Below are positions 16,854 to 54,742 of a stretch of 64,000 nucleotides of DNA, one piece after another. The notes under the pieces were generated by a model. The model had not been told where the DNA came from. It did no database searches and saw only the letters and a program-made list of their open reading frames with translations. The translations under genes were made by a program, and so were the position numbers. Position 1 is the first letter of the stretch; the number at the start of each line of letters is the position of its first letter. The stretch covers positions 1 to 64,000 of the forward strand of contig JARKQJ010000170.1 in NCBI GenBank assembly GCA_029973955.1. Direction: 5' to 3'. Source of the stretch: Paludibaculum sp. Its GTDB lineage: Bacteria; Acidobacteriota; Terriglobia; Bryobacterales; Bryobacteraceae.

Positions 16854-16993
16854 GGTTCAACGCAGTATGTAGGTGTTTTCACCAACACTGAGCTACGTGG
16901 GTAGTATCCCTCATAGCGAATCAAACAGTGGATGGCATCTGTAAGGGGCATGCCGGAGGTTCGTTCAGAACCTCAAGAATCGGAGGCGACATA

Positions 16994-20858: not shown

Positions 20859-20865
20859 ACCAATC

Positions 20866-26362: not shown

Positions 26363-26369
26363 GTTTCTG

Positions 26370-27017: not shown

Positions 27018-27024
27018 CCCCGCC

Positions 27025-28248: not shown

Positions 28249-28287
28249 ACAAGAACGAACGCATCTGTTTGCTGTGAGTTGCCTCAA

Positions 28288-30198
28288 ATGCTCGCCACCC
28301 TCCTTAAGTTCCATCGAGTGTTCGCGCTGCTGATTCAGTCCTGGATCATCCTCGTCTCCCTGACGTTGGCCTTCCTGCTCAGGTTCGATGCGCTGATCCC
28401 GGTCACCGAGTTGCCCGGTTTTCGCGTGGGCCTGATCATCGCCCTGATCGTCAAGCTGATCGCCTTTCGCATCAGCCGTCTCGATCGCGGCTGGTCACGC
28501 TTCGTGGGAATGCGCGACCTCCACGACGTTTTTCTGGCCAACGTCTTTGGCAGCACCATGTTCATCGCAGCCACTCTCGCCGTGGTCGGTTCGGCGTTCC
28601 CGCGCTCGGTTTACATCATCGATTTCCTCGTCTGCTTCCTCGTCACCGCCGCCACGCGCTGCTCCGTGCGGATCTACCGCGAGTTTGTCGATGGCGGCGC
28701 TCGCACAGCCGGCGGGAAGCGAATCCTCATCTATGGCGCCGGTGACGCCGGCGTGGCCCTCCTGCAGGAGATCCAGAACAATCCCAGGCTTGGGCTCCGT
28801 GTCGTCGGCTTCCTCGACGACGACCAGTCCAAATGGCGAACCATCATCCTGGGCGTCACCGTGCTCGGCCCGGGCCGGAGCGCGGCTCTGATCTGCGCCA
28901 AGTTCCTCCGCAGACGCACCCGCGTGGAAGAGATCGTCATCGCCATGCCTTCCGCGACCGGGCCGCAGATGAACGAAGCCCTGGCCAATTGCCGTTCCGC
29001 GGGTGTCCCTTGCAAGACCGTCCCCAGCGTCGGTGAGTTGCTCAGCGGCAAAGTCACTGCCAGCCAGATCCGAGAGATCTCCGTCCTGGACCTCCTGGGC
29101 CGCGCGCCCGTCAACCTCGATGAAACCGTCATCCGCCGGTCCATTGAGGGCCGTTCCGTTCTCGTCACTGGCGCTGCCGGCTCCATCGGCTCCGAGATCT
29201 GCCGCCAGGTCGCTCGCTTTCAACCGCGCCGTCTCTTCCTCTTCGACATGGCCGAAAGCGCGCTCTTCCACATCGACAACCAGATTCGCGCCATGTATCC
29301 CACGCTCCCCGTCGTGGCCGCCATCGGCGACATCCGCGACTATGAGCGCGTGGAAGAGGTCATCCGCAAAGGCGGCGTCGAGTCCATCTTCCATGCCGCC
29401 GCTTACAAGCATGTGCCGTTGATGGAGAACCACGTCGTTGAAGCCGTTCGCAATAACATCCTCGGCACCCGCAACGTCGTCAAGGCGGCCGAAGCGAATC
29501 GCGTCGCCAACTTCCTCATGATCTCCTCCGACAAGGCGGTGAATCCCACCAACGTCATGGGCGCCACCAAGCGCGTCGCCGAATTGATTGTCTCCTCCAT
29601 GCCGTCCGGCCCCGGTTGTCCCACCCGCTGCGTCTCCGTCCGCTTCGGCAACGTCCTCGGCAGCAATGGCAGTGTCGTGCCTCTCTTCCGCGATCAGATT
29701 CTCAGCGGCGGCCCGGTCACCGTCACGCACCCAGACATGCGCCGCTATTTCATGACCATTCCGGAAGCCGTTCAACTCGTCCTCCAGGCATCCACGATGG
29801 GCAAAGGATCCGAGATCTTTGTCCTCGACATGGGCGAACCCGTGAAGATCGTCGACCTCGCCCGCAACATGATTAAGCTCTCCGGCCATGAGCCCGACGT
29901 GGACATCGAGATCCGCTTCACGGGCCTCCGTCCCGGCGAGAAACTCTTCGAAGAACTCGCCATTCAGGGAGAGAACATCCAATCGACGTACCACAAGAAG
30001 ATCAAAATCTTCTCCGGTACCCGGCTCAGAGCCAAGCAGGTCGAGACGTGGATCGAGTCTCTGGAAACTCTCGTCGCACAACGTGATGACTGCGCCCTCG
30101 TGGATCACATCCACGACCTCGTCCCGGAATACAAACCATCCGCCGACTTCAGAGAGCCCGCCCCCACCATGTACTTCTCTGCGTCGGTTGGCGATTGA
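28288..30198 (+). CDS. membrane-bound CapD/FlaA1-like nucleotide-sugar 4,6-dehydratase
   Basis: A 636-aa protein. Four N-terminal membrane helices (about 10-130) are followed by a CoA-binding-like Rossmann domain (ILIYGAGDAGVALLQEI near 145). The catalytic extended SDR (about 285-600) shows VLVTGAAGSIGSEI, FHAAAYKHVPLME and ISSDKAVNPTNVMGATKR. In this subfamily the usual Tyr of YxxxK is replaced (here MGATK), as in other CapD/PglF-type enzymes. Likely reaction: UDP-GlcNAc to the 4-keto-6-deoxy sugar. A TTG at 28279 could be an earlier start; I prefer the ATG at 28288. With the preceding aminotransferase it makes a plausible two-step amino-sugar module. Confidence 0.9.
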   Translation: MLATLLKFHRVFALLIQSWIILVSLTLAFLLRFDALIPVTELPGFRVGLIIALIVKLIAFRISRLDRGWSRFVGMRDLHDVFLANVFGSTMFIAATLAVVGSAFPRSVYIIDFLVCFLVTAATRCSVRIYREFVDGGARTAGGKRILIYGAGDAGVALLQEIQNNPRLGLRVVGFLDDDQSKWRTIILGVTVLGPGRSAALICAKFLRRRTRVEEIVIAMPSATGPQMNEALANCRSAGVPCKTVPSVGELLSGKVTASQIREISVLDLLGRAPVNLDETVIRRSIEGRSVLVTGAAGSIGSEICRQVARFQPRRLFLFDMAESALFHIDNQIRAMYPTLPVVAAIGDIRDYERVEEVIRKGGVESIFHAAAYKHVPLMENHVVEAVRNNILGTRNVVKAAEANRVANFLMISSDKAVNPTNVMGATKRVAELIVSSMPSGPGCPTRCVSVRFGNVLGSNGSVVPLFRDQILSGGPVTVTHPDMRRYFMTIPEAVQLVLQASTMGKGSEIFVLDMGEPVKIVDLARNMIKLSGHEPDVDIEIRFTGLRPGEKLFEELAIQGENIQSTYHKKIKIFSGTRLRAKQVETWIESLETLVAQRDDCALVDHIHDLVPEYKPSADFREPAPTMYFSASVGD

Positions 30199-30214
30199 AC
30201 AGGAGCCTGTCAGC

Positions 30215-31066
30215 ATGGGCGTCCTCACCAACAACCTCACTCCACCAATCCCGATAATCCGCATCGAGCCTTCCGGGCCCCGTGTGCGGCTGCTTCTCTC
30301 TGAGCTTTGGCACTACCGCGAGCTCCTCTACTTCCTCGTCTGGCGCGACCTCAAGGTCCGCTATAAGCAGACCGCCCTCGGCGTCGCCTGGGCCGTCCTC
30401 CAACCCTTGCTCACCGCGCTCGTTTTCAGCATCTTCTTCGGACGCCTCGCCAAAGTGCCCTCGGACGGCATTCCTTATCCGCTCTTCTCCTTCACCGCCC
30501 TCGTGCCGTGGATGTTCTTCGCCAACGCGCTCACGCAATCCTCCAATAGCCTGGTGGGCAGCGCCAACCTGCTCACGAAGGTTTACTTCCCGCGCCTGCT
30601 CATCCCGGTCGGCTCAGTGGTCACCGGCCTTGTCGATTTCGCTCTCTCCTTTGTCGTTCTGCTCGTCATGATGGCCAAGTATCGCGTCGTCCCCACCGCC
30701 GCCGTCTGGTACATCCCGCTTTTTGTACTCCTGGCTCTCATCACCGCGCTCGGCATCGGCTTCTGGCTTTCAGCACTCAACGTGAAATACCGCGATGTCC
30801 GCCACACGGTTCCCTTCCTCGTTCAGTTCTGGATGTTCGCCACGCCGGTCGCCTACCCGAGCAGTCTCTTGCCCGAGCCCTGGCACAGCGTTTACGGGCT
30901 GAATCCGATGGCCGGCGTGGTGGAAGGCCTGCGCTGGGCTATGCTCGGCGGCACCAGCCATCCCGGCACGCTCTTCGCCCTCTCCTGCGTCGCGGCCGTC
31001 GTCCTGTTCGTCAGCGGCGCATATTACTTCCGAAGCGTTGAAAAATCCTTCGCCGATTACGTGTGA
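30215..31066 (+). CDS. ABC-2 polysaccharide export permease (Wzm-like)
   Basis: A 283-aa inner-membrane protein with six predicted helices. The typical cytoplasmic N-terminus of TagG/Wzm proteins is present (ELLYFLVWRDLKVRYKQTALGVAWAVLQPLL), and conserved YFPRLLIP and LNVKYRDVRHTVPFLVQFWMFATPVAYP segments follow. It forms the transmembrane channel of the ABC exporter whose ATPase (Wzt-like) is encoded 10 kb downstream at 41560. Separation of the two by the sugar-modification genes is unusual. AGGAG lies about 10 bases before the ATG. Its stop overlaps an upstream GTG of the next frame. Confidence 0.92.
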   Translation: MGVLTNNLTPPIPIIRIEPSGPRVRLLLSELWHYRELLYFLVWRDLKVRYKQTALGVAWAVLQPLLTALVFSIFFGRLAKVPSDGIPYPLFSFTALVPWMFFANALTQSSNSLVGSANLLTKVYFPRLLIPVGSVVTGLVDFALSFVVLLVMMAKYRVVPTAAVWYIPLFVLLALITALGIGFWLSALNVKYRDVRHTVPFLVQFWMFATPVAYPSSLLPEPWHSVYGLNPMAGVVEGLRWAMLGGTSHPGTLFALSCVAAVVLFVSGAYYFRSVEKSFADYV

Positions 31067-31074
31067 ACTCCGCC

Positions 31075-32271
31075 ATGACCAACGTCAACCCAAGCATCGA
31101 TAGGCCCGCCGAGCACGAGTTCGCTCCCGGCCAAACCGTCACTTTCGCCCAGACCATCACCGAGCAGATGCTGGATGCCTACGCGGCATTCTCGGGCGAC
31201 TTCAACCCGCTGCACATGGACGACCAGTACGCCCAGCGCGCCGGCTTTCGCGGACGCGTCGCCCACGGCATGATCGCCTGCAGTTGCCTCTCCCAACTCA
31301 TTGGGATGCGCCTGCCCGGCCCCGGCGCTCTCTGGGCCAGCCAGGACTTTCGCTGGCTCGCACCGGTCTTTGTCGGAGATCGAATCGAGTTCACTTTGCA
31401 GGTATCGGCGGTTTCACCTGGCACGGGCACTGTCACGCTCTCTGCCCGCGTCGTTAATCAAAACGGGAGGACTGTCATGGAAGGAGACGGGGTAGTAAAG
31501 GTGCTGGAGCCTCGCGATTCGCGTCGCGCGAGACCGCGCGGGGAACATTGCGCTCTCATCACCGGAGGAGTCAATGATGCGGCTCCGGCCATCGCCGACC
31601 GGCTGGCCGCCCAGGGCGCCAAGGTCGCGCTCCTCCTCCATGACGCTACCTCCGAGGCCCAGAAGACCTGCGAGGCGATTTGCGCTACCGGCGCGCAGGC
31701 CATTGCCCTGCCCCACGACACCCTCGCCCACGACGCCCTCCGTCGCGTGGAAGACCTCTTCGGTGCTTCAGTAGACATTCTTGTTCATCAGGCGCCTCTC
31801 ACCTTCAGCCCTGAAGCCTTCCAGACCCTCTCCTGGTCCACGATTCAGAATCAACTGGATCTGAACCTCCGCGCCGCATTCGAATACAGCCAGGCTGTCC
31901 TGCCCGGCATGCTGCAACGAGGCTCGGGCTCCATCGTTCACATCGGCTCCACCTTCACCTGGAGCGTCCCGCCACTCCACTGGACCGCCTTCTGCGTCGC
32001 CAAATCCGCCCTCAAAGCCCTCACCCACAGTCTCGCTGTCGAACTCGGGCCCAAGGGCATTCGCGTCAACCTCGTTTCACCCGGACTTCCGGAACTCGGC
32101 CTCTCCGAGGACGTCACCGAGCGCTTCCGCAAGCTCCAGGCCATGCAGTCTCCGCTGCGCCGTCTCGCCTCTGTCGACGACGTCGCCTCGGCCGTGGCGT
32201 TTCTTTGCTCGGATCACTCGGATTTCATCACCGGCGCGGACATCCCCGTCTGCGGCGGACAGGTGATGTAG
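31075..32271 (+). CDS. MaoC-like hydratase fused to a degenerate SDR domain
   Basis: A 398-aa fusion. Residues about 15-140 are a hot-dog R-specific enoyl hydratase of the MaoC type, with the motif GDFNPLHMD and later RVAHGM (catalytic Asp and His both present). Residues about 155-398 are a short-chain dehydrogenase fold, but the Gly-rich NAD site reads TGGVNDAAPAIA instead of TGxxxGIG, and the YxxxK site reads FCVAK (Tyr to Phe). The Ser (HIGST) and the LNL asparagine remain. The hydratase should act on acyl-ACP or acyl-CoA; the SDR part may bind substrate rather than catalyse. It precedes the FkbH-like and ACP genes. A GTG at 31063 is an alternative start. Confidence 0.85.
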   Translation: MTNVNPSIDRPAEHEFAPGQTVTFAQTITEQMLDAYAAFSGDFNPLHMDDQYAQRAGFRGRVAHGMIACSCLSQLIGMRLPGPGALWASQDFRWLAPVFVGDRIEFTLQVSAVSPGTGTVTLSARVVNQNGRTVMEGDGVVKVLEPRDSRRARPRGEHCALITGGVNDAAPAIADRLAAQGAKVALLLHDATSEAQKTCEAICATGAQAIALPHDTLAHDALRRVEDLFGASVDILVHQAPLTFSPEAFQTLSWSTIQNQLDLNLRAAFEYSQAVLPGMLQRGSGSIVHIGSTFTWSVPPLHWTAFCVAKSALKALTHSLAVELGPKGIRVNLVSPGLPELGLSEDVTERFRKLQAMQSPLRRLASVDDVASAVAFLCSDHSDFITGADIPVCGGQVM

Positions 32272-32285
32272 GAGGAACTACTCCC

Positions 32286-34211
32286 GTGGTTGACTACCAG
32301 ACGCTCCGCAACAGGCTCGATCAGGAGTTGCGCGCCAATTCCCTCGCGGAAGCACGGCAGACATTGGGCGAACTCTGGTCATCGCAGCCCTCTTCCTCCA
32401 CCGCGGCTCTCATCCTTAATCTGAGGCCCGTCCTCGCAAAACAATTCAGCCTTCGCCAATTTCGCGTTGCGATCCTGCGCTCCTTCACGGTGGAGCCCAT
32501 CGCAACACTCCTCCAGGCCTCCGCCGTTCTTCATGGCCTCGACCTTGACATCTATTTCGGTGACTTCAACGCCTACGCCCAGGAGATGCTGCAGCCACCG
32601 TCCGCGCTGCGCTCGTTCGATCCCGCCATTGTGATTCTCGCCGTCCGCACACCCGACCTTCTTCCGCTCATCTGGGAGCAGTTCCCTGACCTCGCTCCGG
32701 AAGACGTGCCAGCGCTCATTTCCAACGCCCTCCAGCAGATGCGCACCTGGCTCCAGTCCTTCCGCCAATCCTGCGGCGCCCGGCTGATCGTTCACTCCCT
32801 CGAACTGCCGGTCTCTCCCGCACAGGGGCTCCTCGATCACGCCAACCTCTCCGGCCAAACCGAAGCCATTCTCGAATTCAACCGCGGACTCAAGACTCTC
32901 GCGGCGGAGTTCACCAATGTCAGTGTCCTGGACTACGACGCCCTCATCTCCCGCTATGGCCGCGAGCCCTGGAACGATGAGGTCCGCAGCGCGGCCATCC
33001 GCCTTCCCATTTCCTCCAAGTACCTCCGCTGCCTCGCTCACGAATGGCTCCGCCACATCCACGCCTTCGTCGGGCAGACGCGCAAGGTCCTCGTCACGGA
33101 CCTCGACAACACTCTCTGGGGCGGTCTCGCGGGAGAGGAAGGGCTTTCCGGCATTCAACTGGGTACCGATCATGCGGGCCTCGGCTATCGCAAGCTCCAG
33201 CGCGCGTTGCTCGACCTGCACCACCGCGGCATTCTGCTCGCCGTTTGCAGCAAGAATAACGAGGCTGACGCCATGCGCATCCTTGAGCAACATCCCGATA
33301 TGCTGCTCAAACCCGACCACTTCGCGGCCATGCGCATCAACTGGAACGACAAGGCCGCGAACCTCAAAGAGATCGCCGCCGAACTCAACCTTGGCAACGA
33401 TGCCCTCGTCTTTCTCGACGACAATCCCGTCGAGCGCCAGCGCATTCGCGCGGAGATGCCCGAGGTGGAGGTGATCGAACTGCCCTCCTCGCCATTGCTT
33501 TACGCGCAGGCATTGCGCGACAGTGTCGTCTTTGAGCGTCTCTCCGTCACCGCGGAAGACCGTCTGCGCACGGAGCTCTACCGGCAGCAGAAGGAGCGCA
33601 TTGAGCTGGCCCAGGCAGCCGGATCGCTCGAAGAGTTCTACGCCTCATTGAAACAGGTGGTCACCATCGCGCCGGTTACCGCCGCGTCCGTGTCGCGCGC
33701 CGCGCAGCTCACGCAGAAAACCAACCAGTTCAACCTCACCACGCGCCGGTACAGCGAAACCCAGATCTCCGAACTCATGGCCACGCCAGGCTGGAACCTC
33801 TCAACCATCCAGGTGGAAGACCGCTTCGGCGACAACGGCATCGTCGGCGTCGTCATCACGCACACTGCCGACTACGTTTGCTGCGTCGACACATTTGTCC
33901 TGAGTTGCCGCGTCATCGGCCGCACCGTCGAATCGGCCGTACTCTCCTACATCGTGGCCGAATGCGCCCGCGAAGGACTGCAGGAGATCCGCGGCCAGTT
34001 CATCCCCACCAAGAAGAACGCGCCCGCCGCCTCTCTTTACTCTTCCCATGGTTTCGTCGCCATCCCGCCCCTGGCGGGCGGCAACGGCAACGGCGAAGCC
34101 AAAGGTTCCTGGTGGGCTCTCGATCTCCGCAAGGCCGACGTGAAGTCTCCCGAGTGGATCCAACTCCGCGTCGCTACGGAACAGGTCCTCTCCACCTATG
34201 CCACTCGTTGA
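32286..34211 (+). CDS. FkbH-like HAD-superfamily protein
   Basis: A 641-aa protein of the FkbH family: a GDSL-like N-terminal region (about 50-250; FRVAILRSFTVEP and DLDIYFGDFNAY), a HAD phosphatase-like domain starting with VTDLDNTLWGG near residue 270 and FLDDNPVERQRI near 375, and a GNAT-like C-terminus (about 460-620). Characterised FkbH proteins convert 1,3-bisphosphoglycerate into glyceryl-ACP. That chemistry suits the ACP encoded directly downstream (14-base overlap). The GTG start at 32286 follows GGAGG at 32271-32275; the ORF continues further upstream but without homology. It probably supplies a C3 acyl group for sugar decoration. Confidence 0.9.
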   Translation: MVDYQTLRNRLDQELRANSLAEARQTLGELWSSQPSSSTAALILNLRPVLAKQFSLRQFRVAILRSFTVEPIATLLQASAVLHGLDLDIYFGDFNAYAQEMLQPPSALRSFDPAIVILAVRTPDLLPLIWEQFPDLAPEDVPALISNALQQMRTWLQSFRQSCGARLIVHSLELPVSPAQGLLDHANLSGQTEAILEFNRGLKTLAAEFTNVSVLDYDALISRYGREPWNDEVRSAAIRLPISSKYLRCLAHEWLRHIHAFVGQTRKVLVTDLDNTLWGGLAGEEGLSGIQLGTDHAGLGYRKLQRALLDLHHRGILLAVCSKNNEADAMRILEQHPDMLLKPDHFAAMRINWNDKAANLKEIAAELNLGNDALVFLDDNPVERQRIRAEMPEVEVIELPSSPLLYAQALRDSVVFERLSVTAEDRLRTELYRQQKERIELAQAAGSLEEFYASLKQVVTIAPVTAASVSRAAQLTQKTNQFNLTTRRYSETQISELMATPGWNLSTIQVEDRFGDNGIVGVVITHTADYVCCVDTFVLSCRVIGRTVESAVLSYIVAECAREGLQEIRGQFIPTKKNAPAASLYSSHGFVAIPPLAGGNGNGEAKGSWWALDLRKADVKSPEWIQLRVATEQVLSTYATR

Positions 34212-34449
34212 TCGCATCTCCCGGCTAGTCGCCGACATCTTCGAAGTCCCCCTCGCCTCGGTCACTCCGGACTCGTCTCCGGATTCCATCGAGTCCTGGG
34301 ATTCGCTTCGCCACCTCAACCTTGTCCTCGCTCTGGAGCAGGAGTTCGGGATTCAGTTCACCCCGGAGGAGATCGAACAATTGCTCTCCGTCTGGCTCAT
34401 CGGCAGCCTCGTGGAAGAAAAGCTCAGCAGTTCAGGAGTCACCCAATGA
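34198..34449 (+). CDS. acyl carrier protein
   Basis: An 83-aa stand-alone acyl carrier protein. The phosphopantetheine attachment serine is in ESWDSLRHLNLVLALEQEF (the DSL motif near residue 41), with the usual four-helix pattern around it (LVADIFEVPLASVTPDSS before, FTPEEIEQLLSV after). It begins inside the end of the FkbH-like gene and its stop overlaps the ATG of the GNAT gene, so all three are translated together. It most likely carries the acyl group made by FkbH and/or the MaoC fusion. A possible but degenerate phosphopantetheinyl transferase lies at 54.7 kb. Confidence 0.93.
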   Translation: MPLVDRISRLVADIFEVPLASVTPDSSPDSIESWDSLRHLNLVLALEQEFGIQFTPEEIEQLLSVWLIGSLVEEKLSSSGVTQ

Positions 34450-35576
34450 GCATCGAGTTCCGTTTCGCCGCCACGAACGAATACCCGCGCATCAGCGCCT
34501 TCCTCGATGAGTTCTGGGCCAAGAACCACATCTATGTCCGCAAACCTGAGCTATTTGAGTGGACCTTCCGCCGCCCCGGCTACTGGGATCCCGGCCAGTA
34601 CAGTTTCTCCCTCGCTGAAGACAACGGAGAACTCGTTGGCATTCTCGGCGGAATTCCCTATGATCTGAACTTCCAGGGCTCGCGCCGGCGCGGCGTTTGG
34701 ATCGTCAACTTCGCCGTGCGGCCTGACTATCGAAAAGGCGCCGCCGCCCTGCGCCTCCTCAGCACATTCCGGAATCCTTCATTTCCCGTTGTCATCGCCT
34801 CCGGCCTGAACGAAGCCACCGTGGCGATCTACAAAGTCTTGCGCGGCCAGGTATTGCCAGAGCCCCCACGGCACGTCGCCGTACTTCCTCCCGCGGTTGA
34901 CCGCCTGGCCGCCCTCATTTCTTACGCCCATCCGGATTGGCACGCCTCGCGCGCCGACGCGCTCGCCTGCTTCTTCGAATGGCCGGCGCTCCCCCCACCG
35001 CCCACTCTCCCTGGCCGGCAACTCCCGCCTGCCTGGGATGAGGTGGACTGGCCTCGCATCGCCGCGCATACCGTCGGCGCCTGCCGCGATCTCGACTACC
35101 TCACCTGGCGCTACCTCCGGCACCCCTGCTTCTCTTACCGCATCCTCACCGTCCCGGAAGGCCCTCACACCGGGCTGCTCATCTGGCGGCTCGAAACCGC
35201 GTCGCGCATTGTGAATGGACAACGGGTCGACGTGGACACCATCGGACGCATCGTCGAATTTCTCCCCGCCAGCCCCGCCAACGCCACGCACCTGCTCGCT
35301 GCTCTCCAGGCAGACCTCGAGCAAGCCGGGGCCCTCGGCGCGGACTTCTATAACTATGACGGCGCCTGCCGCCAGGCATTCAACGACGTCCTTTTCCGCT
35401 GCACCTCACAACATCCCGACGGCCACGACGTGCCCACCCGCCTCCAACCCATCGATCCCGGCAGCGGCATGTTGAATGCCATCTTCGCCGACCCGGATCT
35501 GCCAAGTTGCGATCTCAGCCCGACTTGTCCGTGGTACTGGACCAAGTCCGACTCAGACCAGGACCGCCCCAACTGA
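34446..35576 (+). CDS. GNAT-fold N-acyltransferase-like protein
   Basis: A 376-aa protein with a GNAT acetyltransferase-like N-terminal domain (about 1-120; VWIVNFAVRPDYRKGAAALRLL resembles motif A, with the pyrophosphate-binding RKGAAA). A longer C-terminal part of similar overall type (LDYLTWRYLRHPCFSYRI) recalls double-GNAT or FemAB-like enzymes. Coupled by ATGA overlap to the ACP gene, it is the natural candidate to move the acyl group from ACP to an amino sugar. The acceptor and acyl group are inferred, not shown. Confidence 0.78.
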   Translation: MSIEFRFAATNEYPRISAFLDEFWAKNHIYVRKPELFEWTFRRPGYWDPGQYSFSLAEDNGELVGILGGIPYDLNFQGSRRRGVWIVNFAVRPDYRKGAAALRLLSTFRNPSFPVVIASGLNEATVAIYKVLRGQVLPEPPRHVAVLPPAVDRLAALISYAHPDWHASRADALACFFEWPALPPPPTLPGRQLPPAWDEVDWPRIAAHTVGACRDLDYLTWRYLRHPCFSYRILTVPEGPHTGLLIWRLETASRIVNGQRVDVDTIGRIVEFLPASPANATHLLAALQADLEQAGALGADFYNYDGACRQAFNDVLFRCTSQHPDGHDVPTRLQPIDPGSGMLNAIFADPDLPSCDLSPTCPWYWTKSDSDQDRPN

Positions 35577-35585
35577 ACTTCCCTC

Positions 35586-36542
35586 ATGCGCCAACTCAAC
35601 ATCGTCATGTACCACTACGTTCGCGATCTTCCGCGAACACGCTTTCCGCGTATCCGCGGGATGCTCACTGACGACTTCCGCGCCCAGGTGGATGTCCTCC
35701 AAAGCTCATTCGAGATGGCTACCCTCGAATCCGCGCTCAGCTTCCTCGCCGGAAAGTATCATCCCCGGCGGAACCTGTGCCTGCTGACCTTCGACGACGC
35801 CTTGCGGGAACACTTCACGGGCGTCATGCCCATCCTCGCCGAGCGCCGCATTCAGGGCATCTTCGGCATCATCACCGGATGCGTCGAGGAGCACGCCGTG
35901 GCTCCAGTCCACATGAACCACTTCCTCGCCGCCGATCTCGCTTTCCACCGCTACAGCCGTATCTTCGCCGCTGCCTGGAGATTGGCGTACGGCGAACTCC
36001 TGAGCTCGATCCCCGTAGACGTCGAGAACGCGCGCCGGTCTTACCCTCTCGATACCGCATCCGAAGCGGTTTTCAAGTGGCTCATCAATTTCCAACTCCC
36101 CGAACGGCAGCGCGATGAGATCATCCGCTTCCTTTTCGCCCGCTATTTCGGCGAGGAATGCGCCTTCGCGCGCGAACTCTACATGAGCTGGGATGAAATC
36201 CGCCAACTGCAGTCCGCCGGCATGTTGCTGGCCGGTCACACCCACCGCCACCGCCCGCTATCGGCCCTCTCCCTGACCGAACTTCGGCACGACCTCGAAA
36301 CCAGCCATCACCTGCTGCTGAACCGCACCTCTCACCAGGCGCTGTGGCCATTCAGCTACCCCTACGGCAAACGTAACTCTTACTCTCCTGATGCGATCGA
36401 ACTGCTGCGCTCCACCGGCTACGATTGCGCGCTCACCACCGAATCCGGGCGCAATGTGCCGGGCGTATCTTCCTTCGAACTCTTCCGCACTGACTGCAAC
36501 GGCGCCGTCCAACGCCTGCTCGTTCAGTCCGCTGTCGCTTGA
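35586..36542 (+). CDS. polysaccharide deacetylase (NodB-like, CE4)
   Basis: A 318-aa protein with the NodB homology region. Motif 1 is LLTFDDALREHF (the TFDD aspartates near residue 62) and motif 2 is AGHTHRHRPL (HxxxH-type metal ligands near 220); SYPYGK follows near 258. No clear signal peptide is present, so it may act on a lipid-linked or cytoplasmic sugar. Likely reaction: removal of an N-acetyl group, which could free the amino group for the ACP-linked acyl group made by the preceding genes. It follows the GNAT gene by 9 bases. Confidence 0.85.
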   Translation: MRQLNIVMYHYVRDLPRTRFPRIRGMLTDDFRAQVDVLQSSFEMATLESALSFLAGKYHPRRNLCLLTFDDALREHFTGVMPILAERRIQGIFGIITGCVEEHAVAPVHMNHFLAADLAFHRYSRIFAAAWRLAYGELLSSIPVDVENARRSYPLDTASEAVFKWLINFQLPERQRDEIIRFLFARYFGEECAFARELYMSWDEIRQLQSAGMLLAGHTHRHRPLSALSLTELRHDLETSHHLLLNRTSHQALWPFSYPYGKRNSYSPDAIELLRSTGYDCALTTESGRNVPGVSSFELFRTDCNGAVQRLLVQSAVA

Positions 36543-36562
36543 GGCTCGCTCCCAGGACACCT

Positions 36563-37387
36563 ATGCCAGCTACCACACCCACCGCCCTATCCCTGCCTGC
36601 GGCTTACGATGAGGCGTTCTACCAGGAAGTGGGCCAGATCGCCTACCGTTCCGCGCAGGTCCTCGTTCCCCTGTTGATGGATCTCCTCCATCCGCGCAGC
36701 GTCGTCGACATCGGCTGCGGGGCCGGCGCCTGGCTCTCCGTCTTCCACCAGCACGGCATCGAAGACTATCTCGGCGTCGATTCATCCTGGGTCGAGCCCA
36801 GCACTCTGGTCATTCCGCCCGATCACTTCTTCACGCACAACCTCGATCGGGAACTCACCCTGCCGCGTCAGTTTGATCTCGTCCTCAGCCTGGAAGTGGC
36901 CGAACATCTTCCGCCCGAGGCTGCCCGCGGCTTCGTGCACTCCCTCACCCGCCTGGGCCCGGTCGTCGTGTTTTCCGCCGCCATCCCGGAGCAGGGCGGC
37001 GTCTGTCACCTCAATGAACAATGGCCCGAGTATTGGGCCGCGCTCTTTGCCGGCTTCGGTTTCGTCCCCGTGGACTGCATTCGGCCGCGCCTCTGGTCTC
37101 AACCTGCCGTGGAGTGGTGGTACGCGCAAAACACTCTGATCTACGCCAGCCAGGAGGCGCTGACCCGGTTCGGGCTGCAGCCGGCCGGCGATCCCGTTGC
37201 CACTCAGCTCAGCATCGTCCACAAGGATATGTACCTCAAGATCGTCGGCAAGTACCACGCCGCCCGCGCTCGCGCCGACCTGGAGCAGGTACCGCTCCGC
37301 AAGCTGCTCGGCGCCCTGCCCGGCGCTCTCTCGCGCTACATCCGCCGTCTGGCCCATCATCCTTCCGCCGGTGCAAAGGTGGCGTAA
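36563..37387 (+). CDS. class I SAM-dependent methyltransferase
   Basis: A 274-aa protein with a SAM-binding Rossmann core: motif I VVDIGCGAGAWLSVF near residue 48, motif II YLGVDSSW near 70, and LVLSLEVAEHLPPEAA near 105. The C-terminal 70 residues are basic and Arg-rich (ARARADLEQVPLRKLLG), perhaps for membrane or partner contact. It may methylate a sugar hydroxyl or the acyl group in this cassette. I chose the ATG at 36563; the frame also has a TTG at 36539 that overlaps the previous stop. Its TAA stop overlaps the next ATG (TAATG). Confidence 0.85.
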   Translation: MPATTPTALSLPAAYDEAFYQEVGQIAYRSAQVLVPLLMDLLHPRSVVDIGCGAGAWLSVFHQHGIEDYLGVDSSWVEPSTLVIPPDHFFTHNLDRELTLPRQFDLVLSLEVAEHLPPEAARGFVHSLTRLGPVVVFSAAIPEQGGVCHLNEQWPEYWAALFAGFGFVPVDCIRPRLWSQPAVEWWYAQNTLIYASQEALTRFGLQPAGDPVATQLSIVHKDMYLKIVGKYHAARARADLEQVPLRKLLGALPGALSRYIRRLAHHPSAGAKVA

Positions 37388-38259
37388 TGGCAGACGCAAA
37401 CGCCCCAGTTTCAATTGTCATTCGTGTCCGCAATGAAGGCCGGCTCCTGCGCAAGACGCTCGCGGCGTTGAATGCTCAGGATGGGCCGCCACTCGAAGTG
37501 ATTGTGGTGGATAACGAATCCACGGACGACTCCTCCGAGGTCGCCCGCGAGGCCGGGGCCATCGTGCTGACGCTGCCTCGGTCCGAATTCACCTACGGAA
37601 AAGCCCTGAACGTCGGCATCAGCGCCGCCACCTCTGATTTCGTCGTGCTGCTGAGCGCTCACTCTCTGCCGGTCGGCCCCAACTTCATTCGCCTCGCCGT
37701 GAAACCCTTTGAGAATCCCGCCATCGCCGCTGTCCGCTGCGTGCATATCTCCAACAGGCAGGAGGTGGAACAGTGGGCGAACCAGTCCACTCTTACCTGG
37801 CCCGCGGAACTCACCGACGTCGTTGCCCGCGGACCCGTCGCCTGCGGTTGCGCCATTCGCCGTTCGGTTTGGGCCCAATTGCCGTTCAACGAAGATATCA
37901 AAGCGGTCGAAGACAAGTTCTGGGCCGCCGAAGCGCTAAAGCTCGGCTATCTCATCACCAGCTCGCCTGCGATCTATCTCTATATGCAGGAGTTTAGCTT
38001 CCTGGGCTACATCCGCAAGCTCAATAAGGATCGCCTCTGCTTCTACCAGCACACCGGAAGGAGCTTTGCCGGCCATCCCACCACCCGCGATCTCTGGGTC
38101 GATCTCTTCTACACCCTGCCCCGCCGCGCGTTGCGTGGCATGGTTCAGGACCTCCTGCTTGCCTTTGCCGTCACCAGCGTGCCACTGCAAGCCTGGTACC
38201 TCAAACTGCAGTCCAGACGAGGGCAGTCGCTCTCGCGCTCCCATTCAGTGAACTCATGA
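37387..38259 (+). CDS. family 2 glycosyltransferase
   Basis: A 290-aa GT-A fold inverting glycosyltransferase. N-terminal SIVIRVRNEGRLLRKTL, nucleotide-binding EVIVVDNESTDDS, and the region around LLSAHSLPVGPNF, where the usual DxD is replaced by SAHS. The acceptor-site ED pair is AVEDKFWAAEAL near residue 178. The DxD change is seen in some GT2 subfamilies and does not prove inactivity. No membrane helix is present. It overlaps the methyltransferase by one base and the epimerase gene by four (ATGA). Confidence 0.88.
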   Translation: MADANAPVSIVIRVRNEGRLLRKTLAALNAQDGPPLEVIVVDNESTDDSSEVAREAGAIVLTLPRSEFTYGKALNVGISAATSDFVVLLSAHSLPVGPNFIRLAVKPFENPAIAAVRCVHISNRQEVEQWANQSTLTWPAELTDVVARGPVACGCAIRRSVWAQLPFNEDIKAVEDKFWAAEALKLGYLITSSPAIYLYMQEFSFLGYIRKLNKDRLCFYQHTGRSFAGHPTTRDLWVDLFYTLPRRALRGMVQDLLLAFAVTSVPLQAWYLKLQSRRGQSLSRSHSVNS

Positions 38260-39395
38260 GAACAATCGCTGCCCTTACCGGCTCCCGCGGAGAATGGGGC
38301 TACATCCGCCCCATTCTCAAATCGATTGATCGCGATCCCGATCTCGACTATCGGATCATCGCTACTCATATGCATCTGCTCCCTACCTTCGGCAACACCG
38401 TGAAGGAGATCGAGCGCGACGGCTTTCATGTGGATGAGCGCGTCTACATGACTTTCGACGGCTACAACGCCAGCACCATGGCCAAGTCACTCGGCGTCCT
38501 GCTCCTGGAGTTGCCCACCGTTCTCTCCCGGCTTCGCCCTGATATCATCCTGCTCGCCGGCGACCGCGGAGAACAGTTGATGGGCGCGGTCGCCGGTCTT
38601 CACCTCGGCATCCCCGTCGCGCACATCCAGGCAGGCGAGTTGTCGGGCAATGTCGATGGCATCGTCCGTCACGCTATCACCAAGCTCGCCCACATCCACT
38701 TCGCCGCAAACGAAGAGTTTGCCGATCGCGTGCGCCGCATGGGCGAGCAGGACTTCCGCATCTTCGTCACCGGCGCCCCGCTGGTGGATGAGCTTGTCGA
38801 GGGCCCAATTACCCCCGAAGCCGAGTTGCGTTTGCGCTACCGCCTGCCCGAGCAGCAGAAGCTCGTGCTTACCGTCCAGCATCCCGTCACCGAGGAAGAA
38901 GGCGCCGCCGGTGAACAGATTTCGGAGACAATCCATGCCCTGATGGAACTCAACTGGCCCACCATCTTCATCTACCCGAACGGCGACGCCGGCAGCGAGT
39001 CCATCCGCTCCCAGCTCGCGGCCTTCAAGCGCCCCAACGTGCGCATGTTCCGCAACCTCCCCCGGCAGGACTACCTCGGACTGATGCGCATGGCCTCCGT
39101 CGTCGTCGGCAACTCCAGCAGCGGAATCATGGAGGCGCCGTCGTTCGGAAGACCCACCGTCAACATCGGCCGCCGCCAGGCCGGCCGTCCTCAAGCCTGC
39201 AATGTAATCAACGTTGGATATGCGAAAAGTGACATTGTAAGCGCTTTACAACGCGCAACCAGCCCCGATTTCGTCGCTCAAGCGAGCACTGCGCGCAATC
39301 CTTACGGCGACGGCAACGCCTCCCAACACATCGTCGATGTCCTCAAAAACATCGAAATCAACTCCCGGCTCCTTCTCAAGGAACTCACCTACTAG
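38256..39395 (+). CDS. hydrolysing UDP-GlcNAc-type 2-epimerase (NeuC/LegG-like)
   Basis: A 379-aa GT-B fold enzyme. Family signatures are LTGSRGEWGYIRPIL at the start, LAGDRGEQLMGAVAG, HIQAGELSGNVDGIVRHAITKLAHIHF, and VGNSSSGIMEAPSFGRPTVNIG with the substrate-binding segment. Length and the GNVD...RHAITK block fit the hydrolysing NeuC/LegG branch, which releases UDP and gives ManNAc or 2,4-diacetamido-trideoxymannose. It stands next to CMP-sugar synthetase and NeuB-type synthase genes, so nonulosonic acid synthesis is the clear context. Whether the product is NeuAc, legionaminic acid or another isomer is not resolved; the CapD and DegT enzymes upstream favour a legionaminic-type sugar. Confidence 0.92.
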   Translation: MRTIAALTGSRGEWGYIRPILKSIDRDPDLDYRIIATHMHLLPTFGNTVKEIERDGFHVDERVYMTFDGYNASTMAKSLGVLLLELPTVLSRLRPDIILLAGDRGEQLMGAVAGLHLGIPVAHIQAGELSGNVDGIVRHAITKLAHIHFAANEEFADRVRRMGEQDFRIFVTGAPLVDELVEGPITPEAELRLRYRLPEQQKLVLTVQHPVTEEEGAAGEQISETIHALMELNWPTIFIYPNGDAGSESIRSQLAAFKRPNVRMFRNLPRQDYLGLMRMASVVVGNSSSGIMEAPSFGRPTVNIGRRQAGRPQACNVINVGYAKSDIVSALQRATSPDFVAQASTARNPYGDGNASQHIVDVLKNIEINSRLLLKELTY

Positions 39396-39405
39396 CAGGT
39401 CTATC

Positions 39406-40500
39406 GTGCTCACATTAGAGGACTTCCTCATCCGCGCCAACCTTCCCCTCAAGGCCGCTCTGCAGCGCATGACCGACAACCGCCGCGGCGTTCTGTTCGT
39501 CTGCGATACCGACGCCCATCTGGTCGGGGTTTTGAGCGACGGTGACGTTCGGCGCAGCTTGCTGGACAACACGCAGCTCGTCTCGCCCGTCTCCAAGATC
39601 ATGAATACAGACCCGGTTACGGCCTCCACCATCGCCGATGCCAAGGACCTGGTGAAACGCCTCGCCATCGTCGCCGTGCCGGTCATCGACGACGAAGGCC
39701 GCATCCGGGAAGCCGCCATCGAAGACCGCGACGGCGTCATTTCGTTGCGCACGCTGCCGACGCAGACCAATGCGGAAAAAGGGCTCTGTGCCGTCGCCCT
39801 GATTCCGGCGCGCGGCGGCTCCAAGCGCATTCCGCGTAAGAACCTGGCCATGATCAGCGGCTGTTCCCTGGTGGGCTGGGCGATTCAAGCGGCTCGCGAG
39901 TCCACGGAGGTCGCCCACATCCTGGTTTCCACGGACGACGACGAGATCGCCGCCGAGTGCCGCCGGCACGGGGCGGAAGTGCCCTGGCTGCGGCCCCCGC
40001 AGTTGGCGCACGACGATTCGCCCACGATTGCGGCGGTGGAACATGCCCTGCGATGGGCGCTGGAGAACATCGAGCCGGCGCCGGTATTCGCGGTGTTGCT
40101 GGAACCGACGGCTCCGCTGAGGGAGGGCCGGCACATCGATGTGGCACTGGAGATGCTGGCGGCATCCGACGCCGATTGCGTCATGTCGGTCTCTGAGGCG
40201 CCGCACGTATTCCATCCCGAGGAGCTGTTGGTGGTGACGGACGGGCAGTTGTGTCCATACCTGCCGTACAGGACGATGGAGACGCGTCATCTGCGCGGCG
40301 ATCAATCGAGCGTATACATTCCGAACGGCTTGGTCTACGCGCTGCGAATTGAGGCAGTGCTCGCCACGCACAGCCTGTATGGCGCCAAGACGCTGCCCTA
40401 CATCACGCCGTGGAGCGAGTTCCTGGACATCGACACGGCCGACGACCTGAAGATGGCGGAGTTGCGGATGCAACGCCGCGAGATGGTGGGAAAGGAGTAG
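39406..40500 (+). CDS. CBS-domain CMP-nonulosonate synthetase fusion (LegF/NeuA-like)
   Basis: A 364-aa fusion. Residues about 1-120 hold two CBS motifs (LQRMTDNRRGVLFVCDTDAH and VSKIMNTDPVTASTI). Residues about 128-364 are a cytidylyltransferase of the NeuA type: ALIPARGGSKRIPRKN, STDDDEIAAECRRHGAEV, LLEPTAPLR and DIDTADDLKMAE. It activates the nonulosonic acid with CTP, or could be a PtmE-like nucleotidyltransferase, since that enzyme also carries CBS domains. The start is uncertain: the upstream frame overlaps the epimerase, so I take the GTG at 39406. Codon third-base preference changes between the two halves of this gene. Confidence 0.88.
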   Translation: MLTLEDFLIRANLPLKAALQRMTDNRRGVLFVCDTDAHLVGVLSDGDVRRSLLDNTQLVSPVSKIMNTDPVTASTIADAKDLVKRLAIVAVPVIDDEGRIREAAIEDRDGVISLRTLPTQTNAEKGLCAVALIPARGGSKRIPRKNLAMISGCSLVGWAIQAARESTEVAHILVSTDDDEIAAECRRHGAEVPWLRPPQLAHDDSPTIAAVEHALRWALENIEPAPVFAVLLEPTAPLREGRHIDVALEMLAASDADCVMSVSEAPHVFHPEELLVVTDGQLCPYLPYRTMETRHLRGDQSSVYIPNGLVYALRIEAVLATHSLYGAKTLPYITPWSEFLDIDTADDLKMAELRMQRREMVGKE

Positions 40501-40503
40501 AGA

Positions 40504-41535
40504 ATGCCCAAACAGATCATCATTGCGGGACGGCGCATCGGGCCCGACGCGAGGTGCTTCGTGATTGCGGAGGCCTGCGACAACCATCTTGGAAACATGG
40601 ACGCGGCCAAGGAGATGGTGCGCCAGGCGAAGGCTGCCGGCGCGGACGCCATTAAGTTCCAGCACCACCTGCCGGATGAAGAGATGCTGCGGGAAGGCGT
40701 GCCGATGTCGGCGAACTTCAACATGCCTCTGTATGAGTTCCTGCAGCGCTACGCACTCACACTGGATCAGCACCGGGAGCTGCTGCGGTACTGCAATGAG
40801 CTGGGCATCCTGTATCTGTGTACGCCGTTCAGCCGCAAGGCGGCTGAGGAACTTGAGGAGATGGGTGTGGCGGCTTTCAAGATCGGCTCCGGCGAACTGA
40901 CGGATCTGCCGACCTTGAAGGTGATCGCTCGTTTCGGCAAGCCGATGATCCTGAGCACGGGCATGGCGGAGTGGGAAGAGATCGATGAAACGGTGGAAAC
41001 GCTGCGCCCAATCAACGATCAACTGATCCTGATGAATTGCGTTTCGGAGTATCCAGCCAAGCACTGTGACGTGAACCTGGGCGTGATCGCGCAACTTGAG
41101 CAGCGCTACGACCTGATCGTGGGGCATTCAGATCACACTCCGGACATCTACACCTCCATCGCGGCGGTGGCGAGAGGCGCGAAGCTGCTGGAAAAACACA
41201 TCATCCTGGACCGCCGGCAACCGGGGCCGGACCAGGCGGTGTCGATTGAACCGTACGAACTGGCCGAACTGGTGAAGGCCACGCGGCGAGTGGAGGAGGC
41301 GTGCGGGGCTGAGAAGTCAGTCCACGAAATGGAACGCCCCATCCGGGAATGGGCGCACCGCAGCGTGGTTTCGTTGTGTCCAATTCCGAAAGGGACGAAG
41401 ATCTCCTCGGCGATGGTGTGGACCAAGCGGCCGGGCACGGGCATTCCGGCGCGGGATCTGGAGAACGTGGTGGAGCGGATCGCGGCGCGGGACATCCCGC
41501 AGGACCACCTGATTCGCTGGGATGAACTTGCCTGA
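40504..41535 (+). CDS. nonulosonic acid synthase (NeuB/LegI-like)
   Basis: A 343-aa TIM-barrel synthase that condenses a 2-acetamido-mannose-type sugar with phosphoenolpyruvate. Signatures are VIAEACDNHLGNMDAAKEMV, DAIKFQHHL, YLCTPFSRKAAEEL, FKIGSGELTDLP, LSTGMAEWEEID, NCVSEYPAKHCDVNL and GHSDHTPD. A C-terminal SAF antifreeze-like domain (about 280-343; SVVSLCPIPKGTKISSAMV) completes the family layout. It begins 3 bases after the CMP-sugar synthetase and is followed by the Wzt-type ATPase gene. Exact specificity (Neu, Leg or Pse) cannot be fixed from sequence alone. Confidence 0.93.
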   Translation: MPKQIIIAGRRIGPDARCFVIAEACDNHLGNMDAAKEMVRQAKAAGADAIKFQHHLPDEEMLREGVPMSANFNMPLYEFLQRYALTLDQHRELLRYCNELGILYLCTPFSRKAAEELEEMGVAAFKIGSGELTDLPTLKVIARFGKPMILSTGMAEWEEIDETVETLRPINDQLILMNCVSEYPAKHCDVNLGVIAQLEQRYDLIVGHSDHTPDIYTSIAAVARGAKLLEKHIILDRRQPGPDQAVSIEPYELAELVKATRRVEEACGAEKSVHEMERPIREWAHRSVVSLCPIPKGTKISSAMVWTKRPGTGIPARDLENVVERIAARDIPQDHLIRWDELA

Positions 41536-41559
41536 GATGAGAGCCAGAAGAGGATAAGC

Positions 41560-42813
41560 ATGTCGGCGATTCTGGTGGACAACCTATCGAAGCGGTACCA
41601 GATCGGGGTGCGCGAAAAGCGTTTCCCGACACTGCGCGACAGTCTTGCGCAATTGGCGCGGGCGCCGCAGAGACTATTCCGCCGCAACGGGACGGGCGCC
41701 ACGGATGACTGCCTTTGGGCGCTGAAGGACATCTCATTTGAGATCCGGCAGGGTGAGGTGACCGGCGTGATCGGACGCAACGGCGCGGGTAAGAGCACGC
41801 TATTGAAGATCCTCTCCCGGATTACTGAGCCGACTCAGGGTTTCGCTGAGATTCGAGGCCGCGTGGGCTCCCTCCTGGAGGTGGGCACAGGTTTTCATCC
41901 GGAACTCACTGGCCGGGAGAACATCTATCTAAACGGCGCGATTCTCGGCATGAGGCGGGCGGAGATCGATCGTAAGTTCGATGAGATTGTGAGTTTCGCC
42001 GAGATTGAGAGATTCCTGGACACAGTAGTGAAGCACTACTCAACGGGGATGTTCATGCGGCTGGCGTTCGCCGTGGCGGCCCATCTCGACCCGGAGATTC
42101 TACTGGTGGATGAGGTTCTGGCGGTAGGCGACGCCGAGTTCCAGAAGAAGTGCCTGGGCAAGATGAGCGGCGTGGCCAAACAGGGCCGCACCGTGCTATT
42201 TGTCAGCCACAACATGCCGGCGGTTCAGGCATTGTGCAGCCGCTGTCTGCTTCTGCAGGGTGGACGTCTGCAACTGGCGGGGAGCGTGCAGGAGGCAGTC
42301 GGGCTTTACCTGGCTGGCAACCAGCCCGTGGATCTGGATTCTGAACCGGGCGAAGTGGTGGTGCAAAACCTGCGCGTCAACGGCAGCATGGTGCCGGAAG
42401 TACATGCGGAGCAGCCGCTCCGCTTCGAGTTCGATCTCGGGTTGCGCCGGGATGTGGCCGGATACCGAATGATCCTGGTGATGGAAAACGAGGCGGGCAC
42501 TACCATCCTGCATGCGGTGAGAACTGACCGCGACCTGCCTGAGATCCGGCGAGCGGGCAACTACCGGCTCACCCTCACCACTCCAGCGCTGTGCCTGACG
42601 TCCGGCGCCTACAGCTATTACGTGAAGTTCATCTGGAACGGCCTGAATGTGAAGGGCCGCTACGTTTCCGACAAAGCAGTGGTGACATTCGGCGGCAATT
42701 ACGTCTCCGATATGTCGCCGGGAGTTCTGACGCCGGCGACAGATTGGGCGGCTGAGAAGAGCCAGCGAACGGCAGTTTCGAAGCGGCCGCCCGCCCCGAC
42801 GCATGCGGGGTAA
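41560..42813 (+). CDS. ABC exporter ATP-binding protein with C-terminal carbohydrate-binding domain (Wzt-like)
   Basis: A 417-aa ATPase. Walker A is GRNGAGKSTLLKIL near residue 75, the signature loop is YSTGMFMRLAFAVA near 160, Walker B is EILLVDEVLAVGD near 180, and the H-loop is FVSHNM. Residues about 265-400 form a Wzt_C-type beta-sandwich (VHAEQPLRFEFDLG, YSYYVKFIWNGLNVKGRYVSD) that in O9a-type systems reads the modified chain end. It pairs with the Wzm permease at 30215. Presence of the binding domain suggests export is coupled to a specific cap, possibly the nonulosonic or acylated residue made by genes upstream. A clear AGAGGA lies before the ATG. Confidence 0.93.
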   Translation: MSAILVDNLSKRYQIGVREKRFPTLRDSLAQLARAPQRLFRRNGTGATDDCLWALKDISFEIRQGEVTGVIGRNGAGKSTLLKILSRITEPTQGFAEIRGRVGSLLEVGTGFHPELTGRENIYLNGAILGMRRAEIDRKFDEIVSFAEIERFLDTVVKHYSTGMFMRLAFAVAAHLDPEILLVDEVLAVGDAEFQKKCLGKMSGVAKQGRTVLFVSHNMPAVQALCSRCLLLQGGRLQLAGSVQEAVGLYLAGNQPVDLDSEPGEVVVQNLRVNGSMVPEVHAEQPLRFEFDLGLRRDVAGYRMILVMENEAGTTILHAVRTDRDLPEIRRAGNYRLTLTTPALCLTSGAYSYYVKFIWNGLNVKGRYVSDKAVVTFGGNYVSDMSPGVLTPATDWAAEKSQRTAVSKRPPAPTHAG

Positions 42814-47017: not shown

Positions 47018-47019
47018 CC

Positions 47020-54535: not shown

Positions 54536-54742
54536 CCTTCTTGCCGCGATTGCTTGGGGTTGATGTGACCCGTGAGTTTGGTGGTGGCCGAATCTCCTGG
54601 ACAGACGAATCAGGTACTTCGAGATCGTCCGGACCTGCACAATCACTTGACGGAATGAACCCGCGGCAACGCCGCGCTGGTAGAGAGCCTGGATTCGAGC
54701 GTGAATGCCGACACCAAATATTTCGTTCCCAGAGCTGGCAGG

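Follow-up and report, generated by a model that had tools for sequence, protein, structure and literature searches.

The nearest precedent for the system described here is the glyceroyl-pseudaminic acid of Campylobacter. According to the accessible parts of the reports, flagellin of C. jejuni NCTC 11168 bears 5-(2,3-di-O-methylglyceroyl)amino-pseudaminic acid (pseudaminic acid, Pse), with a deacylation proposed (PMC3068675), the flagellar glycosylation locus of this strain contains cj1302, an FkbH-domain gene (PMC7099621), and flagellin glycosylation islands are a further place where acyl carrier protein (ACP) and fatty-acid genes are found (PMC4875605, PMC7874193). For polyketide clusters, the formation of glyceryl-ACP by FkbH and a stand-alone ACP has been published. 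The present analysis concerns a gene cluster at 26334-42813 of a 64,000-nucleotide stretch of Paludibaculum sp. (Acidobacteriota, Bryobacteraceae; contig JARKQJ010000170.1, positions 1 to 64,000), referred to as the window, in which FkbH and ACP genes stand among genes for a nonulosonic acid (NulO). The locus probably makes a neuraminic (Neu)- or legionaminic (Leg)-type NulO for an ABC-exported polymer, decorated with a short acyl group borne on the ACP; most likely this acyl is derived from glycerate, and the ACP delivers it to an amino group on the NulO itself or on a NulO precursor. The observed basis of this reading consists of the gene content, the catalytic residues, a strict co-occurrence of acyl and NulO genes, a replacement of the NulO genes, and loci devoid of the acyl module.

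The likeness to the C. jejuni 11168 locus lies in its FkbH-domain gene and in a NulO carrying an N-linked glyceric-acid group instead of acetyl. However, there are clear differences: as far as the accessible reports describe it, the Campylobacter system follows the Pse pathway, modifies flagellin, has an aminopeptidase-like Cj1295 that is not of the PF01522 family and assigns no loading role to FkbH, whereas the locus in the window is of the ABC-exporting capsule type, its acyltransferase belongs to the GNAT superfamily and has an N-myristoyltransferase (NMT) fold, and its acyl-NulO is a prediction from the genes. The flagellin islands of Aeromonas and Enterobacteriaceae contain ACP, FabG-like, and acyl dehydratase or GNAT genes, in Aeromonas beside NulO genes; in the accessible descriptions they are of the LuxE/LuxC/AMP-ligase type, do not name FkbH and serve flagellin, not capsule. 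Polyketide modules (methoxymalonyl-ACP, tetronates) share the use of FkbH and a stand-alone ACP for glyceryl-ACP, but hand the acyl to a polyketide, not a sugar, and their accessible accounts describe no deacetylase or GNAT of the kind found here. Eukaryotic NMT shares the tandem GNAT fold and N-acyl transfer, but the sequence identity is about 11%, and NMT takes its acyl group from acyl-CoA and passes it to a peptide. In rhizobia, NodB, NodA and NodF supply a PF01522 deacetylase, an N-acyltransferase and a specialised ACP, through which a fatty acyl is placed on chitin oligomers; the PF01522 motifs are common to both systems, whereas the GNAT of the window lacks a NodA Pfam match. No published description of FkbH and ACP in a NulO capsule locus was found by a search that left most subscription journals outside. 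The original prediction, made from the letters of the window, had called a dedicated ACP for NulO decoration in a soil-type acidobacterium new, which is too strong: glyceroyl-NulO, the Campylobacter FkbH gene and ACP genes in flagellin islands are already in print, to judge from the accessible text.

The acyl cassette of the window, entirely on the forward strand, consists of: (i) a single reading frame joining an R-hydratase-like MaoC domain to a short-chain dehydrogenase/reductase (SDR) without catalytic tyrosine (31075-32271; PF01575 74.8 bits, PF13561 148 bits); (ii) FkbH, a predicted phosphoglyceryl transferase/phosphatase placing glyceryl onto ACP (32286-34211; TIGR01686 312 bits, cut-off 146.65); (iii) a stand-alone ACP with a WDSL serine (34198-34449; PF00550 27.1, cut-off 20.8); (iv) a tandem-GNAT acyltransferase of NMT-like fold (34446-35576; PF13527 29.4, cut-off 25); (v) a NodB/PgaB-like deacetylase, assigned by its PF01522 match and catalytic motifs (35586-36542). 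A methyltransferase dependent on S-adenosylmethionine (36563-37387; PF13489) and a GT2 glycosyltransferase (37384-38259; PF00535 73 bits) separate it from the NulO trio on the same strand, namely a hydrolysing UDP-GlcNAc/diacetylbacillosamine 2-epimerase of NeuC/LegG type (38256-39395; TIGR03568 408, cut-off 236), a CMP-sugar synthetase (CTP_transf_3) with a CBS domain (39406-40500; PF00571, PF02348; PseF model 147 of 206) and a NeuB-family NulO synthase with SAF domain (40504-41535; PF03102 261 bits). This gene list, with CapD and DegT upstream, had been given in the original prediction and was recovered at every place, in order and on the forward strand, although the two exporter halves, Wzm and Wzt, and a 4'-phosphopantetheinyl transferase (PPTase) had been overlooked.

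Cassettes containing both GNAT and deacetylase have been identified in 15 distinct genomes (window, L108, L113, L114, L127, L140-L143, L145 and L205-L209; L211-L213 duplicate L127, L140 and L143 and are not counted again). NeuB is present in all 15, in 14 on the same contig, which bears out the predicted tie between an ACP-dependent acyl module and NulO genes. In the remaining genome, L108, the cassette contig stops inside GT2, and a second contig starts just before NeuC and carries NeuC, the CBS-CMP-synthetase, NeuB and Wzt in window order (82, 60, 78 and 62% identity to those of the window); the two contigs presumably adjoin each other. The order MaoC-(SDR)-FkbH-ACP-GNAT-deacetylase is repeated in the 14 further genomes, except that the SDR is missing in L142, L143 and L205 and FkbH in L207, and because of this recurrence the order is not due to chance. 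A second search started from the GNAT, using a profile of 10 sequences against 399 genomes belonging to the class. It gave nine strong matches, the window included, and a weak one (G312) on a 3.8-kb contig where no other cassette gene was matched; in all nine strong-match genomes NeuB, NeuC, CMP-synthetase, MaoC, ACP and deacetylase lie together in one run, joined by FkbH in eight.

The FkbH-ACP pair by itself behaves differently. In a survey of 297 genomes of the phylum, with up to four FkbH candidates scored per genome, 39 FkbH matches were obtained in 29 genomes, and by coordinates a true NeuB (E below about 1e-19) lies within 30 kb of four of the 39, among the matches listed (window, G028, G243 and G175). 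Weaker NeuB matches, one of them (G122) about 23 kb from FkbH, are presumably DAHP-synthase-like. With three FkbH sequences as queries, a scan across 84,980 species, each represented by a single genome, gave 483 relatives; among the best 80 loci, ACP was found in 76, NeuB in 10 and a window-type GNAT in nine. NeuB accompanies 8/9 GNAT-bearing FkbH loci versus 2/71 others (Fisher 1.4e-8, kinship uncorrected), and 6/7 versus 1/50 where at least 3 kb is available on both sides (1.3e-6), p-values that are a rough guide only because the genomes are related. The search for the order FkbH-ACP-GNAT near NeuB/LegI, suggested with the original prediction, has thereby been carried out. That prediction was to be abandoned if the cassette lay mostly far from NeuB in relatives; this holds for the FkbH-ACP pair, a general module mostly away from NeuB, and the link is specific to the version with GNAT and deacetylase. 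In the FkbH tree the ten GNAT-bearing rows split into two groups, a pattern still compatible with a single origin. The window-type GNAT was found in none of five other FkbH genomes in which it was sought, and reading frames of 375 residues after the ACP in L037 and L038, considered as GNAT orthologs, were rejected on an unconvincing alignment.

A comparison of identities separates the NulO genes of the window from the rest of the locus. Medians are given for window genes against other cassettes and, after the stroke, among those others, where pairs of at least 97% identity are left out; the L108 trio does not enter the figures. For the acyl genes they amount to 51/53% (GNAT), 46/48% (FkbH), 58/49% (ACP), 48/48% (deacetylase), 45/49% (MaoC) and 44/49% (SDR), and for the capsule genes to 55/55% (CapD), 60/59% (DegT), 49/49% (small phosphoglycosyl transferase, PGT), 63/68% (permease) and 49/56% (ABC ATPase), versus 34/59% for NeuB, 33/66% for NeuC and 30/63% for the CMP-synthetase. 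The window and L108 therefore carry NulO genes of another lineage, which also differ in gene order and in having the CBS domain, the acyl genes being common to all. Elsewhere, in 13 loci, NeuB comes before MaoC; 12 of these extend as far as NeuC, which there follows the deacetylase and precedes the CMP-synthetase, a GT2 intervening between NeuC and the CMP-synthetase in five; in the window the trio comes after the acyl genes. In L207 the permease is relocated. The window NeuB is the sole NeuB match in its genome (94.5% complete, 6% contamination), and its best match among plasmid and phage records is an Azospirillum 'neuB' (41%). Beside the CMP-NulO synthetase, before Wzt, three relatives carry a Pfam-checked D-2-hydroxyacid dehydrogenase (L113:16042-17121, L127:16094-17056, L142:10880-11890), none being seen at the corresponding place in the window, and relatives also have an asparagine-synthase-like gene before Wzt (checked in L127).

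The family of the window's genome, to which L143, a Bryobacteraceae metagenome-assembled genome (MAG), also belongs, has NeuB in 27 of 121 genomes. Eight of these 27 NeuB loci were opened, two being cassette genomes already counted (L113 and L108). In L214 and L215 the same capsule locus is found in the order Wzm-NeuB-NeuC-CMP-AsnB-Wzt, with NeuB adjoining NeuC, and MaoC, SDR, ACP, GNAT, deacetylase, DegT and PGT are unmatched within the 17-20 kb examined; an FkbH paralogue lies about 6 kb upstream on the opposite strand in L215. Their NulO trio resembles that of the relatives (median identities of 48-69%) and not that of the window (28-35%). Since this is the same locus minus the acyl genes, the acyl genes form a discrete module linked to capsules with NulO, and nature thus offers loci that have it and loci that lack it for comparison. 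The four further loci of the family show other NulO contexts, with the module unmatched in the stretches examined. Other arrangements of FkbH and carrier protein in NulO loci of the same phylum count in favour of the proposed decoration: L055:6233-15811, another acyl system in a NulO capsule locus, has NeuB-NeuC-CMP-synthetase followed by FkbH/carrier/thioesterase, AMP-binding/carrier/thioesterase and PPTase, and L044:2476-18727 has two NeuB-type matches, DegT, CapD, MaoC/SDR, FkbH, ACP, a PF13302 GNAT, a cytidylyltransferase and a class-III aminotransferase.

These gene orders bear on the idea that the module decorates another sugar of the repeat unit, for example a DegT-made amino sugar serving as a bacillosamine-like starter, with NulO merely a frequent neighbour. 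Upstream of the cassette stand, side by side, a PGT, a polymer-initiating enzyme (26334-27017; PF02397 178 bits, 49% median identity to 10 relatives), a DegT sugar aminotransferase of the pyridoxal-phosphate type, ArnB/PseC-like (27025-28248; PF01041 411 bits, best solved relative ArnB), and a CapD-type membrane UDP-GlcNAc 4,6-dehydratase (28288-30198; PF02719 391 bits and CoA_binding_3), which could make an amino-sugar starter in need of an N-acyl group, and FkbH-ACP stands with no NeuB in view in 70 of the 80 best loci. However, each of the 15 cassette genomes has NeuB, in 12/12 non-window-type loci reaching NeuC the acyl genes are flanked by NeuB on one side and NeuC on the other, and NeuB and NeuC are adjacent where the module is missing, so that this explanation appears unlikely.

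The residues of FkbH and ACP are consistent with glyceryl loading. The window FkbH falls slightly under the Pfam FkbH_N cut-off (25.2 of 27); the aspartates D272 and D274 of its haloacid-dehalogenase-type DxD motif are kept in 81/81 aligned sequences and C541, in the LSCRVIGR motif, in 80/80. FkbH with intact motifs is present in 14/15 cassettes, and the WDS serine of the ACP in 15/15. A PPTase at 54701-55498, forward strand, could activate the ACP (PF01648 25.8 of 25; HetI model 85 of 370); PPTase matches occur in 14 of the 15 cassette genomes, and contig C233 of the window's genome contains a further match to PF01648.

MaoC keeps its catalytic Asp and His in 15/15 cassettes. In the SDR the YxxxK tyrosine is found in 0/12 cassette copies, the lysine in 11/12, and the window copy also lacks the nucleotide motif, versus a tyrosine kept in 9/9 SDRs checked from other FkbH loci. 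Because the tyrosine is gone in all 12 copies and three loci have no SDR at all, the domain probably does not serve as a ketoreductase in the window's lineage. For the same two reasons a lactyl-ACP made by FkbH, MaoC and SDR, as in the bryostatin-like route, has been rejected for the cassette. Seven proteobacterial and Magnetococcales loci (L156, L158, L160, L161, L163, L168 and L173) combine FkbH, ACP, MaoC and a tyrosine-keeping SDR, with NeuB unmatched, and may make a reduced, lactyl-like acyl-ACP. The nearest relatives of MaoC are (R)-specific enoyl-CoA hydratases, and one cassette lacks FkbH, both in keeping with a PhaJ-like MaoC that supplies an (R)-3-hydroxyacyl group, such as 3-hydroxybutyryl, from fatty acid metabolism in place of a glycerate unit. 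This source is improbable in view of FkbH with intact motifs in 14/15 cassettes, an SDR without tyrosine in 12/12 and the absence of a ketosynthase among the cassette genes scanned.

The predicted structure of the GNAT (pLDDT 87, pTM 0.88) has N-myristoyltransferases, themselves tandem GNATs, as best structural matches (E 1.3e-11, TM 0.54, about 11% identity), and in Pfam the protein matches only Acetyltransf_9/1, with no NMT or NodA family. Its C-terminus, WYWTK[SA]DSDQDRP plus one residue, is conserved in 10/10 aligned sequences and offers a handle for finding such loci. The deacetylase motifs [TA]FDD, H[TS]HxH and P[YF]G are intact in 15/15 cassettes, and a signal peptide is not evident by eye. 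The methyltransferase was matched in two of the 15 cassette loci, those of the window and L108; the O-methylation foreseen originally is thus not a core feature.

The NulO enzymes point, on sequence grounds, to a Neu- or Leg-type product and away from Pse, through the NeuC-type epimerases and the Gly of the NeuB 'SGE' motif, a position held by Phe in the Pse type. The window and most relatives have Ser as residue 184, and Ser at this position is listed for Pse in the accessible part of one source (PMC7371886). NeuB scores under the cut-offs of both the NeuB_NnaB (332 of 400 bits) and the PseI model (256 of 340 bits). The TIGR03568 match of the epimerase passes its cut-off and does not separate LegG from NeuC; among solved structures, the closest one bears the name diacetylbacillosamine 2-epimerase. 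The NCBIfam LegB dehydratase model TIGR04180 gave 40 of 475 bits, and DegT reached 220 of 420 bits with the NCBIfam LegC aminotransferase model TIGR04181 and 379 of 423.5 bits with the PseC model TIGR03588. No LegH/PglD-type match to PF17836 (PglD_N) was found in the window's genome, where other acetyltransferase families were outside the genome-wide search. CapD is strong in 10/10 cassette genomes tested, and a close DegT (at least 60% identity) is found in eight of these ten and in all five of L205-L209, hence in 13/15, not always near the cassette. Two close DegT matches from nearly identical genomes (G303:C202:378-1538 and G304:C130:57097-58257) contain one TAA inside the match.

Two routes to the acylated amino group have to be weighed, the frequent DegT favouring one and the constant deacetylase the other. 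By the first, which is quite possible though short of an even chance, GNAT stands in for LegH: it puts the ACP-borne acyl on the 4-amino group of the sugar made by CapD and DegT, a position that becomes N7 of a legionaminic acid, and the deacetylase has some other role. It agrees with CapD and DegT upstream in the same stretch in 10/15 cassette loci, with the 13/15 genomes having a close DegT, with the absence of a PglD_N match and with the solved relative of NeuC. It agrees less well with the missed LegB and LegC cut-offs, with the L127 contig, where CapD and DegT come only 31 and 42 kb past FkbH, with the lack of a close DegT from the genomes of L114 and L108 (both fragmented MAGs), and with L214 and L215, whose NulO trio is like that of the relatives although the stretch examined shows no DegT; moreover, it leaves the always-present deacetylase unexplained. 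By the second, held more tentatively, the deacetylase strips the 5-N-acetyl group of CMP-NulO, NulO or N-acetylmannosamine and GNAT adds the ACP-borne acyl, comparable to N-glycolyl- versus N-acetylneuraminic acid (Neu5Gc versus Neu5Ac), with CapD/DegT providing the initiating sugar. Here the deacetylase, motifs intact, accompanies GNAT in 15/15 cassettes, PGT-DegT-CapD forms a separate block on other contigs of the L145 genome, and the accessible Campylobacter report places di-O-methylglyceroyl on N5 of Pse in C. jejuni 11168, with deacylation by Cj1295 proposed. On the other side, DegT accompanies most cassettes and is not beside the two module-less loci, and the deacetylase substrate is only putative. 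The PF01522 family is also active on lipid-linked and polymeric sugars. The label 'legionaminic-like' of the original prediction is not established, given the LegB and LegC scores under their cut-offs and the L214/L215 trio without a DegT in the stretch examined; relative to that prediction the linkage has become stronger, and sugar identity and novelty weaker.

Under the favoured reading, PPTase would arm the ACP, and FkbH would use 1,3-bisphosphoglycerate, strip the phosphate and yield glyceryl-S-ACP, as family chemistry and the intact residues suggest. MaoC, whose residues are present, may then work on the ACP thioester, for instance by beta-elimination of glyceryl to enolpyruvyl/pyruvyl, although the step to pyruvyl is a guess, and the SDR part probably performs no reduction any more. 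A cytoplasmic deacetylase would expose an amino group for acylation by the NMT-fold tandem GNAT, or else GNAT would acylate the 4-amino sugar from CapD/DegT. NeuC, NeuB and the CMP-synthetase would supply the activated NulO, with export through Wzm/Wzt. A more specific proposal, speculative and somewhat doubtful, is that deacetylase, NMT-fold GNAT and FkbH-charged ACP form an insertable, self-contained acyl-swap module, by which a C3 glyceryl of glycolytic origin, or pyruvyl through MaoC, replaces acetyl on a bacterial sialic acid and which still works when the NulO enzymes are exchanged. If the decoration is true, the locus represents a genetically defined bacterial route for varying the acyl on sialic-acid-like sugars with ACP instead of CoA. 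It would also provide candidate genes for attaching glyceric acid in N-linkage to NulOs, a modification established by chemical analysis in Campylobacter, for which the accessible literature leaves the loading enzyme unassigned. The conserved gene set would in that case be an unstudied way to vary bacterial surface sugars.

Several points weigh against the proposed decoration. The polymer and its product are predicted from the genes, and the acylated sugar cannot be read from gene neighbourhood; the acyl could equally sit on the initiating sugar or on some other residue. The L207 cassette lacks FkbH: only a C-terminal remnant (L207:9780-9860) is left between SDR and ACP in an otherwise intact cassette, and no close copy was found elsewhere in that genome, only a distant paralogue, which means either a different acyl source or a decaying cassette. 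MaoC stands beside glyceryl-ACP without a settled chemistry. The window alone has a PPTase on the contig of its cassette (contigs compared by number, in the L145 genome also by sequence, many being short), and the PPTase has thus been rejected as a conserved cassette gene. Finally, the FkbH locus counts cover the best 80 of 483 relatives, and the cassette genomes are mostly MAGs, many of them related, L142 and L143 being nearly identical.

The acyl and NulO genes sit between the two exporter genes, an ABC2 permease, Wzm-like (30215-31066, forward strand; PF01061 75.9 bits), and an ABC ATPase, Wzt-like (41560-42813, forward strand; PF00005 81 bits). Throughout 26334-42813 the genes, from PGT to Wzt all on the forward strand, overlap or are separated by gaps within 40 bases, which is operon-like. 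A Wza-type export protein and a Wzz/BY-kinase-type protein are encoded 5' of the cluster, and further glycosyltransferases, a Wzy_C ligase and the PPTase 3' of it; the whole is an ABC-exporter capsule or exopolysaccharide locus. An Rfam scan of 15000-64000 gave no match, and promoter and terminator signals in the window were no more frequent than in shuffles. A NusG-family gene (16928-17557), 5' of the long one-strand polysaccharide cluster, could encode a specialised antiterminator of the RfaH/LoaP kind. Just 5' of the Wza-type exporter lies a gene for an ASPM-SPD-2-Hydin (ASH) domain protein (20728-22989), with homologues of 44-50% identity at the same position in L127, L143 and L145. Immediately 3' of the ABC ATPase a PEP-CTERM protein is encoded (42900-43532), and an AsnB resembling the XrtA-type amidotransferase follows at 46579-48927 (491 of 817 bits, under the cut-off); together these two hint at an exosortase link.

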